The notes beneath the pieces are model-generated. The model made no database searches. It worked only from the letters and a program-made list of their open reading frames with translations, and was not told the origin of the DNA. DNA of 64,000 nt, taken from the NCBI GenBank assembly GCA_013178005.1, contig JABLXL010000004.1, forward strand, positions 62,001-126,000, written 5' to 3'. The position numbers and the translations under genes are program-made. Positions 10,741-17,944 of the stretch are shown piece after piece (positions within the stretch are counted from its first letter, which is position 1; each line of letters begins with the position of its first letter). Source of the DNA: Actinomycetota bacterium (GTDB taxonomy: Bacteria > Actinomycetota > Geothermincolia > Geothermincolales > RBG-13-55-18).

Positions 10741-11304
10741 ATGAGCTGCGGTACCGAGCACGAGGGGATGAATTCCGGCTGCTCCAACGTTGCCTGCTGC
10801 GAGGCGACCGCCGGTCCGCGTCCCAACCCGCTTATCATGGCGCTTCGTTTCGCCGCTTTCGCGGCGGGCGTCATGGTGGCCTTGCTGGGCATGATCAAGG
10901 AGAGGAAGTTCAAGCACCTCGCGGTATGGCTGGGGGGTTGGGCCCTTTTCCTCACCTGGCCGCGTTACCTGATTTGTTCCCGCTGCGAGGGGTACGGTAA
11001 CATGTGCTATTCCTATTACATAGGCAAGTACACCTCCATGGTTTTCCCGAAGGTGGAGGGCAAGGAGCCCGGGAACCTGGGACTTGCGCAGGAGATAGCC
11101 TCGTTGAGCACCATTTTCTGGGCGCCGGCGATCGCGCTGCGCGGCAACCGCAAGCTCTTGGCGCAATACCTCGCCATTATGAACGTGGTGCTCCTGGGCC
11201 AGTTCTTCCACGCCTGCCGCTACTGCGCCGCGAACTCCACCCAGGAGTGGAAGAACGTATGCCCCGCCCATAGGACCTGGAAGAAGATCCTCAAGATCTC
11301 CTGA
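10741..11304 (+). CDS. Cysteine-rich membrane protein, unknown
   Basis: A 187-residue protein starting at an ATG preceded by AAAGGAGGTAAGG. The N-terminus is cysteine-rich and soluble (MSCGTEHEG..CSNVACCEA). Two hydrophobic segments follow at about 30-45 and 58-75, then a loop with CSRCEGYGNMC. Another hydrophobic stretch near 140-155 leads to a C-terminus with HACRYCAANS and a further cysteine in NVCPAHRTW. At least eleven cysteines, several in CxxC spacing, suggest metal or iron-sulfur binding, or disulfides at the membrane surface. I do not recognise the family. Confidence 0.75.
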   Translation: MSCGTEHEGMNSGCSNVACCEATAGPRPNPLIMALRFAAFAAGVMVALLGMIKERKFKHLAVWLGGWALFLTWPRYLICSRCEGYGNMCYSYYIGKYTSMVFPKVEGKEPGNLGLAQEIASLSTIFWAPAIALRGNRKLLAQYLAIMNVVLLGQFFHACRYCAANSTQEWKNVCPAHRTWKKILKIS

Positions 11305-11399: not shown

Positions 11400-12764
11400 T
11401 TGAAAGGCAAGGGGTTTGCGGCAGTCGGGGTCATCGCGGCGATCGTTCTTGCCCTGCTGTTAATGTGCCCCGTCACGTGGGCGGGCGAGGGAGAAGCCGG
11501 CGGCGCCTCCGGCTCGCCGCAGGATAGGGATATATACACCGTGCGCACGGTGGACGGCGTGGACCTTAAGATATGGAGGTACCGACCCGACCCTGGGAGC
11601 CCCCTGCGGGAGGGAGCCCAGCCGGTGATCCTCATGCCCGGCATGGCCTGCAACTTCAACTTCTTCAACGTGCACACACCCGAGGGGGCGACGTACAGCA
11701 CCGACCTCCCCGAAGAACCGGCGCCCTGGGCTGTGGGTGACGAGTACCTGCGGGAAGACCCCATGCGTTATTACAGCCTGGCCTACTATCTCTGGAGCCG
11801 GGGTTACGACGTATGGCTGGCGAACTACCGCGGCCAGGGCAGGGACGCTTTCAGGAGCGGCGGAGCGAGTGGGTACGCCATCGACGAGTTGGGCATCTAC
11901 GACATGCCGGCCATCATCACCAGGGTGAGAGAGGTAACCGGACGCAAGCCGGTATGGGTCGGTCACAGCATGGGCGGGGTCATGTCCTACATCTACCTGC
12001 AGGGCGCGAGGTTCGAGAACATGGCCGACCCGAACTCCAGGGTCATCTCCGACCCCGCCCTGGTGTGCGAGCGCAACGACGGGGACGGCCCTCAGGCGCT
12101 CAAGGGCTTGATCTCCCTGGACGGCCCGGCTTACCCCACCGGCAACCTGACCTGCCTGTTGAGGTTGACCTTGTGGACCGTTCTTTACGTCCCCTTCTAC
12201 CTGGACCTGAGGCCCATCACCGCCAACCTGGGGGGAGCGGTGGCCTCGCCGGTCCTCGGCCTGGAAAACCTGCTGCGCGCGGTTTGGCGCCTCTTGGGCT
12301 GCCCGGACCTTCTGTTTCCCGTCAACCTGATGCTGTCGATATATCCCGAAAACCTCAACGCCGACATATCATCCTTTTTCTTCCAGTATGCGGCGGACGG
12401 CTTCAGCTCGCGGGCAGTGGTGCAGTTCCTGGACGCGTGCGTGAACCACAAGATGAGGGAGGACTACCGCAACGGGTTCTTCAACTTCTGGCGCTGGAGC
12501 CCTCCCTGGCCCCGGCCAGGCGACGGTTACTACTACTACTCGGACAACCTTAAGAAGATTAGCCTGCCCACCCTGGTGCTCGTGGACGCCACGCGGGACA
12601 TAACCAACCCCGAGGAAGTGGAGATGGTCCACGCCCTCAAGACCAGAGACCCCAGGGACCGCTGCTATGTGATCCCGGGCACCGCCCATGCCGATATCGT
12701 CCTGGGACTTAACGCGCCCACCGAGCTCTTCCCCAGGATCGGGGAATGGTTGGAATCGCTGTGA
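11400..12764 (+). CDS. Secreted alpha/beta hydrolase, lipase-like
   Basis: A 454-residue protein starting at a TTG after GGGGAGG; the ATG just upstream is out of frame. Residues 1-28 are a signal peptide (hydrophobic core VIAAIVLALLLM). The fold resembles acid lipases: a region with YDVWLANYRGQGRD (about 137-150), then the nucleophile elbow GHSMGG (about 184-189). The acid is probably D in LVDATRDITNP (about 397) and the histidine in GTAHAD (about 427). Hydrolysis of esters or lipids outside the cell is inferred. It stands alone. Confidence 0.87.
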   Translation: MKGKGFAAVGVIAAIVLALLLMCPVTWAGEGEAGGASGSPQDRDIYTVRTVDGVDLKIWRYRPDPGSPLREGAQPVILMPGMACNFNFFNVHTPEGATYSTDLPEEPAPWAVGDEYLREDPMRYYSLAYYLWSRGYDVWLANYRGQGRDAFRSGGASGYAIDELGIYDMPAIITRVREVTGRKPVWVGHSMGGVMSYIYLQGARFENMADPNSRVISDPALVCERNDGDGPQALKGLISLDGPAYPTGNLTCLLRLTLWTVLYVPFYLDLRPITANLGGAVASPVLGLENLLRAVWRLLGCPDLLFPVNLMLSIYPENLNADISSFFFQYAADGFSSRAVVQFLDACVNHKMREDYRNGFFNFWRWSPPWPRPGDGYYYYSDNLKKISLPTLVLVDATRDITNPEEVEMVHALKTRDPRDRCYVIPGTAHADIVLGLNAPTELFPRIGEWLESL

Positions 12765-12973
12765 TCGGGTGGTTGCATTCTCTTCCAAGAGATGGCCGAG
12801 GAGCTTCGCCCCCTCGATGGCCCTGCCGTCTGGGGAATAAAAAGGAAGCGGTATCAACGCATCCCCGGCAGCCTGGACGCGCCGGGGGGTAGGGACGCCA
12901 GGGGGAGCCGGCGCGAGCGTGCGGCGGAGGTAGGGCGAGGGTTTCTCTCGCTTGCGATGAAAGGAGGTTGCCC

Positions 12974-13816
12974 GTGGGCCTTTTCGAGAGGATGGACGTC
13001 TGGGCACGTCTCGGCAGGTTGATGAATTCCCCTTTCGGGGTCAGGTTCCTGAGCGCCCTGCGTGGCTTGGTGGAGAAGGCCGCCAGGCCGGTGGCCGCCG
13101 GCAAGAGCGATGAGCGGCCGGCCTTCACCCCCTTCGCCAAGGACCTGCGCGAGGCCCGGGTGAGCCTGGTCACCACCACGGGAATCCACCTGGACGACCA
13201 GGAGCCCTTCGACACCGCGGCCGCCCTGGGGGATTCCACCTTCCGCGCCATCCCCCGAGACGTGGACGTGTCGTGCCTGCGCATCGCCCATACCCACTAC
13301 CCCCACGAGCGGGCGCTGCGGGACATCAACGTCATCTTCCCCGTCGAGAGGCTGCGGGAGCTCGAGCGGGAGGGGGCCATCGGCTCGGTGGGGGCGTACC
13401 ATTACTCCTTCGGTTTCGACCTGCACGTAAAGGAGCTCGTCGACCCCGACCACGGCACGGCGCACGAGCTGGCGCGCCGCCTGCGGGATGACCGCGTGGA
13501 CGTGGTCCTCTTCACCCCGGGCTGACCCATGTGCAACCGGGCCGTGAGCCTGATCGCCAGGGTGGTGGAGTCGTACGGCATGTGCACGGTGGCCCTCTCC
13601 CTGAACCGCGAGATCTCGGAGAAGATCGGCGCCCCGCGCACCCTCTACCTGCGCTACCCCTACGGCGCACCACTGGGGGAGCCGGGGGACGTCAACCAGC
13701 AACGGGCCATCCTCAAGGACATGTTCCAGGCCTTGAAGACGATAAAGGAGCCGGGGACCATCATCGACCTCCCCTACCGCTGGCGCCGCGAGCGCTTCGG
13801 AGAGGTGAGGTTTTAG
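12974..13816 (+). CDS. Selenoprotein of the GrdB/PrdB reductase family (UGA read as Sec)
   Basis: The frame is interrupted only by a TGA at 13523-13525 and continues in phase to 13816, giving 280 residues with selenocysteine at 184. A GTG start at 12974 follows AAAGGAGG. The part before the UGA carries family signatures: LVTTTGIHLDDQEPFD, RIAHTHYPHERALRDINVIFP and the GAIGSVGAYHYSF segment. At the UGA the protein reads LFTPG-U-PMCNRAV, an UxxC motif in the position where homologues carry CxxC or, in GrdB and PrdB, UxxC. The part after it (LIARVVESYGM, ALSLNREISEK) completes the domain. The substrate is unknown; the family uses thiol/selenol chemistry as in glycine or D-proline reduction. Confidence 0.82.
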
Positions 13817-14119: not shown

Positions 14120-14782
14120 ATGGAACAGACATTGGCAGAGCGGCTGGCGTCAGACCTCAGGATAGACGTCACCCAGGTGGTAAGAGAGTTCTGGGAGATC
14201 CTTTTCCTGAAGGACCTCCTGGAATCACCACACGGCAAAAACCTGGTGTTCAAGGGCGGAACGGCCTTGAGGTTGGCTTACGACTCCCCGCGTTTTTCCG
14301 AGGATCTGGATTTCGCCTTGTTGAAGGACTCGTTGAAAGGGAAGGTGGAGGGCCTGGCGAAAGCCATGGCGGAAAAGTACGCGGAAGCATCGTTAACCGA
14401 TGTGGCCGAGAAGCGGTGGACCTATCTCTGGGAGATCAAGGTAAGCGAGGGATACCTGGCCCGTCCCTTCCGTATAAAAATCGAGATCTCGAAACGCGCG
14501 GCAAAGGATTACGATTACCGGTTACGGTTGCTTGCCTCTCCCACCACTCCCCTGCAGGTGCTGGGCAATGTGGCCACGCTCGAGCAATTGTACAAGGATA
14601 AATTGGACTGCATAAAAGGGCGCGCCGCGCCCAAGGACGTATTTGATCTCTGGTACATATGTCAGAAGCTCAGGCTGCCATATCGGCCGCCGGAAACGAC
14701 CATATCCAAGAAGGAACTGCGAAGGGAATTGGGAAAATACCTGCCTTTGGCCTACAAGCCCGTCGTCGAGGAGCTGCTATGA
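14120..14782 (+). CDS. AbiEii-family nucleotidyltransferase (toxin)
   Basis: A 220-residue protein of the AbiEii/AbiGii nucleotidyltransferase family. The signature VFKGGTALRLAYD (about 49-61) and the catalytic pair in SEDLDFAL (about 66-73) are intact. Further conserved residues lie in KDVFDLWYI near 176. Such proteins are toxins of type IV or related toxin-antitoxin phage-exclusion modules that transfer nucleotides, for example to tRNA acceptor ends in the MenT relatives. It precedes the antitoxin, the reverse of the classic abiEi-abiEii order, and overlaps it by 4 bp. Confidence 0.88.
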   Translation: MEQTLAERLASDLRIDVTQVVREFWEILFLKDLLESPHGKNLVFKGGTALRLAYDSPRFSEDLDFALLKDSLKGKVEGLAKAMAEKYAEASLTDVAEKRWTYLWEIKVSEGYLARPFRIKIEISKRAAKDYDYRLRLLASPTTPLQVLGNVATLEQLYKDKLDCIKGRAAPKDVFDLWYICQKLRLPYRPPETTISKKELRRELGKYLPLAYKPVVEELL

Positions 14783-15351
14783 GGGACATCGAGCTGCAAA
14801 GGGCCCTACGGGAGACGGGCAAAAGTTTCTTCACCATCGCCGATCTGGAGAAAGTCACCGGCCTGGGGAGGGAGAGCCTCCATGTATACCTCAACCGGCT
14901 GTGGAAAAGAGGGGCCATAGAGAGAGCGGCCAGGGGCGTTTACGTGCTTCCAGGATCAGGCATCAGCATCGAGAGGGTAGCAGGACAACTGTATTTTCCC
15001 TGCTACCTTTCCTTCGAATCAGCGCTATCGCGTTCAGGTGTCTTGAACCTTGTGCCCTACGCCCTCACCTTCGCCACCACCAGGAAGACGAGGTCCGTGG
15101 AGTTGCTCGGTCGCTTGGTGGAATACCGGAGAATAAAAGAGGAGTTATTCTTCGGATTCGATTTGGAAGATGGGTACTACATCGCAAAGCAAGAGAAAGC
15201 ATTCCTCGACCTCGTTTATCTTGCGGCCTTTGGAAAGGCTTCCCTTCCCCTGCAGGAGCTGGATGTGAGCAAGCTGTCACTGCCTGTCCTCATGGAATTC
15301 TCGCGAAGGTATCCCGCAAGGGTAGTGAATAAGCTGGAGGGCTTGCTTTAG
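14779..15351 (+). CDS. AbiEi-family antitoxin / transcriptional regulator
   Basis: A 190-residue protein; the ATG at 14779 overlaps the toxin's TGA, so translation is coupled. The N-terminal 60 residues form a winged helix (FTIADLEKVTGLGRESLHVYLNRLWKRGAIERAARGVYVL), as in AbiEi antitoxins that repress their own operon. The C-terminal part (YYIAKQEKAFLDLVYLAAF) matches the AbiEi C-terminal domain. Longer in-frame starts inside the toxin gene have no ribosome binding site. Confidence 0.85.
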   Translation: MRDIELQRALRETGKSFFTIADLEKVTGLGRESLHVYLNRLWKRGAIERAARGVYVLPGSGISIERVAGQLYFPCYLSFESALSRSGVLNLVPYALTFATTRKTRSVELLGRLVEYRRIKEELFFGFDLEDGYYIAKQEKAFLDLVYLAAFGKASLPLQELDVSKLSLPVLMEFSRRYPARVVNKLEGLL

Positions 15352-15727: not shown

Positions 15728-17944
15728 ATGAAAAAGAAAGCGCTAAATTCCATCAACATCAACGAGATATATGCACATACGCCAGTGGGTAATAAGTGGC
15801 ACCTTCTCTATGATCACTTGTTTGGCGTTGCCAAGGCTGCCAAGGAAATGGCAAGTTCCTTTGGCAAGGGATCCCAGGCTTTCTGGTTAGGAATTATGCA
15901 TGATATAGGTAAAATAAGCCCAGCATTTCAAGGATATTTAAGGAAAATCTTTAATGGAGAAGCTTCAAGCTGTGAACCGCATGCCATATGGGGCGCTGCC
16001 TACATGTATTTATTACTTGCTGGAAATATGAATTTAAGCGACGGTTGGGAACAGTATTGCCTTCCAATCATGGGTCATCATGCTGGATTGCCTGACATAG
16101 GAATCGGTGCACTAAGAATCGAAAGCTTCATTAAGGAAAATAAAGATGCAATTAAGTTGATGGGTGGATATTTAAAAGGTTTATTGGTGGACAACAAGGC
16201 AATTGCAGATGAGGTGCCGAAAGTTGAAATCGAGACGAACCCTCCTTACGTCAGAGAACACACGACAAGGATGCTTTATTCGGTCTTGGTAGACGCAGAT
16301 TATCTTGATACTGATTCGCATTTTAACAGAGACAAGCAATGCCTAAGAAAATCTTGGCCGGAACTTGATTCTTTGAGCGGCATATTTACTCGACAATATC
16401 GCGCCTATATCAATCAGTTAAAAAGCAGCTCTTGCGATGATGTTATCAGAATCAGGGATAACGTTTATACACAATGCATAGAGAAAGCTGAAGATGCCCC
16501 AGGTATATTCACGTTGACTGCTCCAACAGGAAGCGGGAAAACTCTAGGCTACTTGGCGTTTGCGCTTAACCATGCGGTCAAGCATAAAAAGTCCAGAATC
16601 ATCGTCGTGCTTCCCTATACAAGCATTATTGATCAGACAGCGAGAACCATAAGAAGAATTCTGGGAAGTAATGCGGTTCTCGAACATCACAGCTCTTTCG
16701 ACGTGTCGATAATCGATGATGGAGCTTTGGTCGATAAATATATGTTGGCCAGCGAGAACTGGGATGCTCCTATTATAGTAACGACAACCGTCCAATTTTT
16801 TGAAAGCCTCTTTTCGAACAAGCCCAGCAAGGTGAGGAAAATCCACAATATTGCTAACTCCGTGGTGGTGTTAGACGAGGTTCAAGCTCTACCACCTGAG
16901 ATGCTCGGACCTACATTAGATATGGTCCGTTCGCTAGCAAATCATTACGGGGTAAGCTTCCTCCTGTCGACTGCTACACAACCCGCATTTGAGATGATCG
17001 ATGGGCAAAGTGTTTTCACATCACTTAGTGGACGGGAAATAATTCCTGATTACAATACGTTATTTAAAAAAATGAGAAGGGTGATTTATGAGATTTACCC
17101 TGGGAATATTACTTGGGATGAATTGTTGCGTTCCATACATGGGTTAGACCAAGTAATGGTCGTTTTCAATACCAGGGCACATGCCACTAAGCTCTTTAGC
17201 ATGTTAGAGCAAGATGATGGAACTTTCCATCTCTCTTCAATGCTTTGTGCTAAGCATCGTAAAGCGATTCTTGAAACGGTTAAGCAGCGACTTGAAGACG
17301 GATTACGGGTTCGCCTGATAACTACGCAGGTGGTCGAGGCGGGTGTCGACCTCGATTTTCCTGAGGTATGGAGGGCAATAGGGCCACTAGATCGTATTGT
17401 TCAGGCTGCTGGACGTTGTAATCGGAATGGAAGATTAGCTTGCGGTAAGGTAATCATATTCGAACCCGAGGAAGCAGGCACTCCAGGCGGTCCATATAAG
17501 ATAGGGGTCGAAAAGAGTAAGATGATTCTAAAGCAGCATGATGCGGAAGATTTACATAATCCGGAGATATACAGAGAATATTTTTCCCGCTTGTACCAGT
17601 CCGTCAATCTTGATGTTGAACACGTTCAATTGTACAGAAGAGATATAAATTATCCAGAAGTTGCTAAGAAGTATAAGCTTATAAGAGAGAATACTGCTAT
17701 GGTGGTTGTCCCCTATAGAGATAGCGCTGAAAGGCTACAGCAGTTTCAAGCTTTCCCCTCGCGCGAAACATGGTATGGTCTACAACCTTTTGTTGTGAAT
17801 GTTAGGGAAAAAGACATCCTAAGCTATTCTGCGAAAGGGTATGCGCGCATGATAACGGGGAATTTATACGAGTGGTTTGGCCCATATGACGAGAACCTTG
17901 GATTGACGGATTTATACTTCGATCCGGCCGATCTAGTCATATGA
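15728..17944 (+). CDS. cas3: Type I-C CRISPR-associated helicase-nuclease Cas3
   Basis: A 738-residue fusion of an HD nuclease and a superfamily 2 helicase, complete. HD-domain residues are H25/H30 in WHLLYDH, the HD pair in MHDIGK (58-59) and GHHAG (116-120). The helicase shows Walker A APTGSGKT (265-272), the DEAD-type box DEVQ (383-386), motif III STAT, and motif VI in QAAGRCNRNGR. It degrades DNA recruited by the type I-C Cascade complex. No strong Shine-Dalgarno precedes the ATG. Base composition is clearly lower in GC than the flanks, a sign of transfer. Confidence 0.96.
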   Translation: MKKKALNSININEIYAHTPVGNKWHLLYDHLFGVAKAAKEMASSFGKGSQAFWLGIMHDIGKISPAFQGYLRKIFNGEASSCEPHAIWGAAYMYLLLAGNMNLSDGWEQYCLPIMGHHAGLPDIGIGALRIESFIKENKDAIKLMGGYLKGLLVDNKAIADEVPKVEIETNPPYVREHTTRMLYSVLVDADYLDTDSHFNRDKQCLRKSWPELDSLSGIFTRQYRAYINQLKSSSCDDVIRIRDNVYTQCIEKAEDAPGIFTLTAPTGSGKTLGYLAFALNHAVKHKKSRIIVVLPYTSIIDQTARTIRRILGSNAVLEHHSSFDVSIIDDGALVDKYMLASENWDAPIIVTTTVQFFESLFSNKPSKVRKIHNIANSVVVLDEVQALPPEMLGPTLDMVRSLANHYGVSFLLSTATQPAFEMIDGQSVFTSLSGREIIPDYNTLFKKMRRVIYEIYPGNITWDELLRSIHGLDQVMVVFNTRAHATKLFSMLEQDDGTFHLSSMLCAKHRKAILETVKQRLEDGLRVRLITTQVVEAGVDLDFPEVWRAIGPLDRIVQAAGRCNRNGRLACGKVIIFEPEEAGTPGGPYKIGVEKSKMILKQHDAEDLHNPEIYREYFSRLYQSVNLDVEHVQLYRRDINYPEVAKKYKLIRENTAMVVVPYRDSAERLQQFQAFPSRETWYGLQPFVVNVREKDILSYSAKGYARMITGNLYEWFGPYDENLGLTDLYFDPADLVI

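Follow-up and report, generated by a model that had tools for sequence, protein, structure and literature searches.

Selenoproteins designated 'proline reductase PrdB' and carrying a UxxC motif (pfam07355) were already known in 2005, and marine metagenomes contain them in abundance (PMC1088965, PMC2398784). The Sargasso Sea sequences contained 42 genes of this type (PMC1088965), and the GOS sequences contained 235 PrdB members with selenocysteine (Sec) and 110 with cysteine, assigned to pfam07355 (PMC2398784). In the collection of papers searched, none pairs the term 'selenoprotein' with 'PrdB-like'. The gene described here, found in a 64,000-nucleotide stretch of DNA (the window), joins these known UxxC selenoproteins and is not a new kind. 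It shares with them the Pfam family, the UxxC motif, the occurrence of Sec forms alongside Cys homologues and a bacterial SECIS just past the UGA (the likeness to the GOS members being one of description), but differs in belonging to an Actinomycetota lineage of metagenome-assembled genomes (MAGs) and in adjoining hydrolase genes. The features of the gene are as follows.

12960-12967, + strand: ribosome-binding site AAAGGAGG, recognized from sequence, 6 nt before the GTG at 12974
12974-13816, + strand: PrdB-like UxxC selenoprotein gene, 280 amino acids plus TAG stop, assigned from the frame, profile matches and conservation
13523-13525, + strand: in-frame UGA predicted to be read as selenocysteine, residue 184, TGA in all homologues of the class and in 44 of the 47 homologues checked
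13532-13534, + strand: TGC, Cys187, second residue of the UxxC, invariant in alignment A4
13536-13554, + strand: bacterial SECIS-like hairpin, identified by comparison across homologues

The frame, the family, the conservation of Sec or Cys, the complete Sec machinery and the covarying hairpin are computational results, and from sequence we consider it nearly certain that 12974-13816 encodes a single-domain PrdB-like selenoprotein whose UGA would be decoded by SelB and tRNA-Sec under the direction of the hairpin at 13536-13554. Translation from the GTG start to the TAG stop bears out the proposal of the first-pass annotation that one frame is interrupted solely by the TGA at codon 184, in the context ...VDVVLFTPG-U-PMCNRAV.... 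Calling of open reading frames under the standard code yields two, 12968-13525 and 13529-13816, just as had been predicted of a gene caller. The present reading restores as one a gene that would be cut in two by automatic annotation. That both halves belong to one domain was likewise confirmed, the first half alone matching positions 17-147 of NCBIfam TIGR04483 (1.7e-26) and the second the consecutive stretch 151-236 (2.2e-15).

The whole frame has TIGR04483, the D-proline reductase PrdB equivalog, as its best NCBIfam match (1.1e-49; 169 bits, where the cut-off is 300), covering positions 17-236 of 238 with the motif at the matching place, and it exceeds the gathering cut-off of the GRDB superfamily PF07355 (36.5 bits against 22, 4.5e-9). 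The protein is also homologous to the C-terminal half of GrdB (TIGR01917, PF07355), including the UxxC region, but it has 280 amino acids against the 431 positions of that model, carries UxxC only rather than UxxCxxC, and scores 51.8 bits against a cut-off of 602. By these profile comparisons the protein is nearer PrdB than GrdB; the earlier GrdB/PrdB label is refined to PrdB-like, not GrdB.

Conservation of codon 184 was followed from the order to the phylum. Six full matches in five genomes of the order, the window included, have exactly one TGA each, at this codon, at identities down to 37%, and in the class all nine matches have TGA at the same codon. Across a set of homologues that includes MAGs of Actinomycetota, Methylomirabilota, Chloroflexi and Nitrospinota, reading codon by codon gave TGA in 44 of 47 and TGT in the remaining three, all from Anaerolineaceae/Chloroflexi MAGs. 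A scan of the phylum found matches in 77 of 396 genomes, and all but eight of the roughly ninety matches hold an in-frame TGA; six of the eight were read at the codon, and these have TGC. The family of UxxC selenoproteins is widespread in the phylum. (A scan of contigs with the single protein gave no match, a scan with the alignment did.) Residue 184 is accordingly Sec or Cys in all of the 47 homologues read codon by codon, and the UxxC motif proposed at the UGA is found as UPMC. One homologue in which the TGA is accompanied by a hairpin of bacterial type lies on a contig of a Methanothrix MAG (L057:4002-4880), a bin with an archaeal label, and is possibly a binning error.

A pseudogene or sequencing error, in which a Cys or other codon was mutated or misread as TGA, would also leave a frame split under standard gene calling, but the same TGA recurs in genomes that are independent of one another, at identities as low as about 35%, conservation is kept in both halves, and the hairpin downstream covaries, so that we judge this explanation very improbable.

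The genome of the window (3.6 Mb, 98 contigs, 97% complete) contains all four of the genes selA, selB, selC and selD that had been proposed as a check, clustered in the order selD-selA-selB-selC on a single contig, C49:

C49 28964-29887: selD, with one in-frame TGA of its own
C49 30939-32315: selA, 595 bits
C49 32383-34263: selB, 380 bits
C49 34581-34672: tRNA-Sec (selC), anticodon UCA, by tRNA call

A second match to the tRNA-Sec model was called as tRNA-Cys and was set aside. SelB is above its cut-off in 27 of the 31 genomes of the class. Below the cut-off, the SelB model also matches C19:50028-51422 of the window's genome (203 bits, with two in-frame TAG codons), and the similar matches in other genomes of the class, most of them uninterrupted frames about 404-443 amino acids long, may simply be EF-Tu.

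A conserved protein with an in-frame TGA could also arise if TGA encoded Trp, Gly or some other residue throughout the genome. Two neighboring genes in the window end in TGA, the adjacent hydrolase gene (12762-12764) and the AbiEii gene (14780-14782), which argues that the code is not reassigned; moreover, homologues have Cys at the codon, not Trp or Gly, and the genome has a tRNA-Sec. Reassignment is the remotest of the explanations considered, and decoding as selenocysteine remains the preferred reading.

The first-pass annotation had pointed to a hairpin of CGGGC (13538-13542) and GCCTG (13548-13552), beginning 12 nt past the UGA, as possibly part of a bacterial SECIS. The hairpin exists and, on comparison, proves to be the 5-bp core of a stem-loop that is conserved in the same register in 38 main-branch Sec homologues (35 distinct), where 92.5% of cells pair versus 15-61% in other registers. 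Among 27 representative sequences the figure is 92.6% versus at most 50% when the helix is slid, with 16 double changes and a covariation score reached by none of 500 shuffles. Compensatory changes include CAG/CTG to CAA/TTG in one Methylomirabilota and one actinobacterial member, and a Gly codon whose third base tracks the opposite Ser or Ala codon. Of the eight pairs, nine Cys homologues retain 4.8 on average, versus 7.3 for the Sec homologues (Mann-Whitney p = 7e-6, a value computed over related sequences that are not independent). The apical loop, CGTGA (13543-13547), contains an invariant GU (13544-13545) and lies 17 nt from the UGA, a distance that in bacterial SECIS elements is about 16-37 nt. 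Such elements commonly have a small apical loop that contains a guanosine (PMC1088965). The conserved stem-loop after the UGA fits a bacterial SECIS.

The hairpin of the window itself is short, having the 5-bp core and six of the eight family pairs, and its folding energy is no lower than that of synonymous-codon shuffles (z = 0.26, with a family mean of -0.89); a search of the window against Rfam at gathering thresholds gave no match. The evidence for a SECIS is consequently comparative. A six-member branch with UPDC is without the main register and apparently has a hairpin further downstream.

In an AlphaFold model of the protein (pLDDT 87), residue 184 falls between a strand (177-181) and a helix (185-199). 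A strand-helix junction is a usual place for a redox UxxC. Searches of solved structures by sequence, and of the PDB with Foldseek, found no significant relative. In the mechanism we propose, insertion of Sec by SelB at the UGA is the best-supported step. Sec184, placed by the model at the N-terminus of an alpha-helix just past a beta strand, may then act as a reactive selenolate; by analogy with known UxxC redox proteins and from the motif, Cys187 would close a selenenylsulfide with Sec184, and a thioredoxin-type reductant would reopen it.

Two genes upstream in the window belong to a neighborhood that recurs in part among relatives:

10741-11304, + strand: 187-amino-acid Cys-rich protein, probably membrane-located, the same gene being found in the clusters of genomes G017, G008 and G010
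11400-12764, + strand: alpha/beta-hydrolase (lipase-like), with TGA stop, a homologous gene being found in the G010 cluster

The Cys-rich protein has no Pfam or NCBIfam match. In relatives, the PrdB-like gene directly follows a gene for a metallo-beta-lactamase-fold protein, with a 4-nt overlap in G010 and G019 and a 13-nt gap in G008, and some relatives have the Cys-rich protein and alpha/beta hydrolases upstream. The window retains the Cys-rich protein and the hydrolase; the metallo-beta-lactamase-fold partner gene was not found in its genome. Directly downstream lies an AbiEii/AbiEi type IV toxin-antitoxin pair (14120-15351), followed by an ORF (15728-17944) that by eye resembles Cas3.

These neighbors bear on whether the selenoprotein is a true D-proline reductase PrdB subunit with a pyruvoyl partner of the PrdA type. 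Although TIGR04483 is the best NCBIfam match, the score is well under the curated cut-off, the neighbors are hydrolases with no recognizable prd genes, and the pyruvoyl subunit PF09338 had no match either in the 31 genomes of the class or in another 17 that carry homologues, in a search in which no positive control gave a signal, so that absence of the partner is probable, not proven. From the low score and the failure to find a partner we regard a true PrdB subunit as unlikely, and the stand-alone PrdB-like selenoprotein is probably not a D-proline reductase; glycine reduction is unlikely as well, since the pyruvoyl subunit was not found. As the family is apparently without the partner subunit needed by glycine and proline reductases, the 'proline reductase' label is doubtful and the substrate becomes a testable question. 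We see about an even chance that the stand-alone PrdB-like selenoproteins form a pyruvoyl-independent selenoenzyme family that does not reduce amino acids. Its ties in this lineage would then be with a protein of the metallo-beta-lactamase fold, an alpha/beta hydrolase and a Cys-rich protein of the membrane, and those in Methylomirabilota with the synthesis of arsenosugars; one branch of Actinomycetota would have a two-Sec UxxU active site.

In a Methylomirabilis MAG (L043:3809-10482) the homologue lies among genes for an ArsM-like protein, ArsS (TIGR04167, 435 bits) and a TIGR04283 arsenosugar glycosyltransferase, together with a mercuric-reductase-like FAD oxidoreductase. Its place in an arsenosugar cluster is a hint that the pathways served differ from one family member to another.

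Two PrdB-like homologues from two genera of the same family (L076:1405-2274 and L079:1333-2574, in genomes G152 and G122) have UPIU in place of UPxC, their two in-frame TGAs making a UxxU two-Sec variant. Their main-register hairpin is weakened, and a second hairpin, with the sequence GCGCT CGTGC AGCGC in L076, follows about 9 nt further on, which matches the distance to the second UGA.
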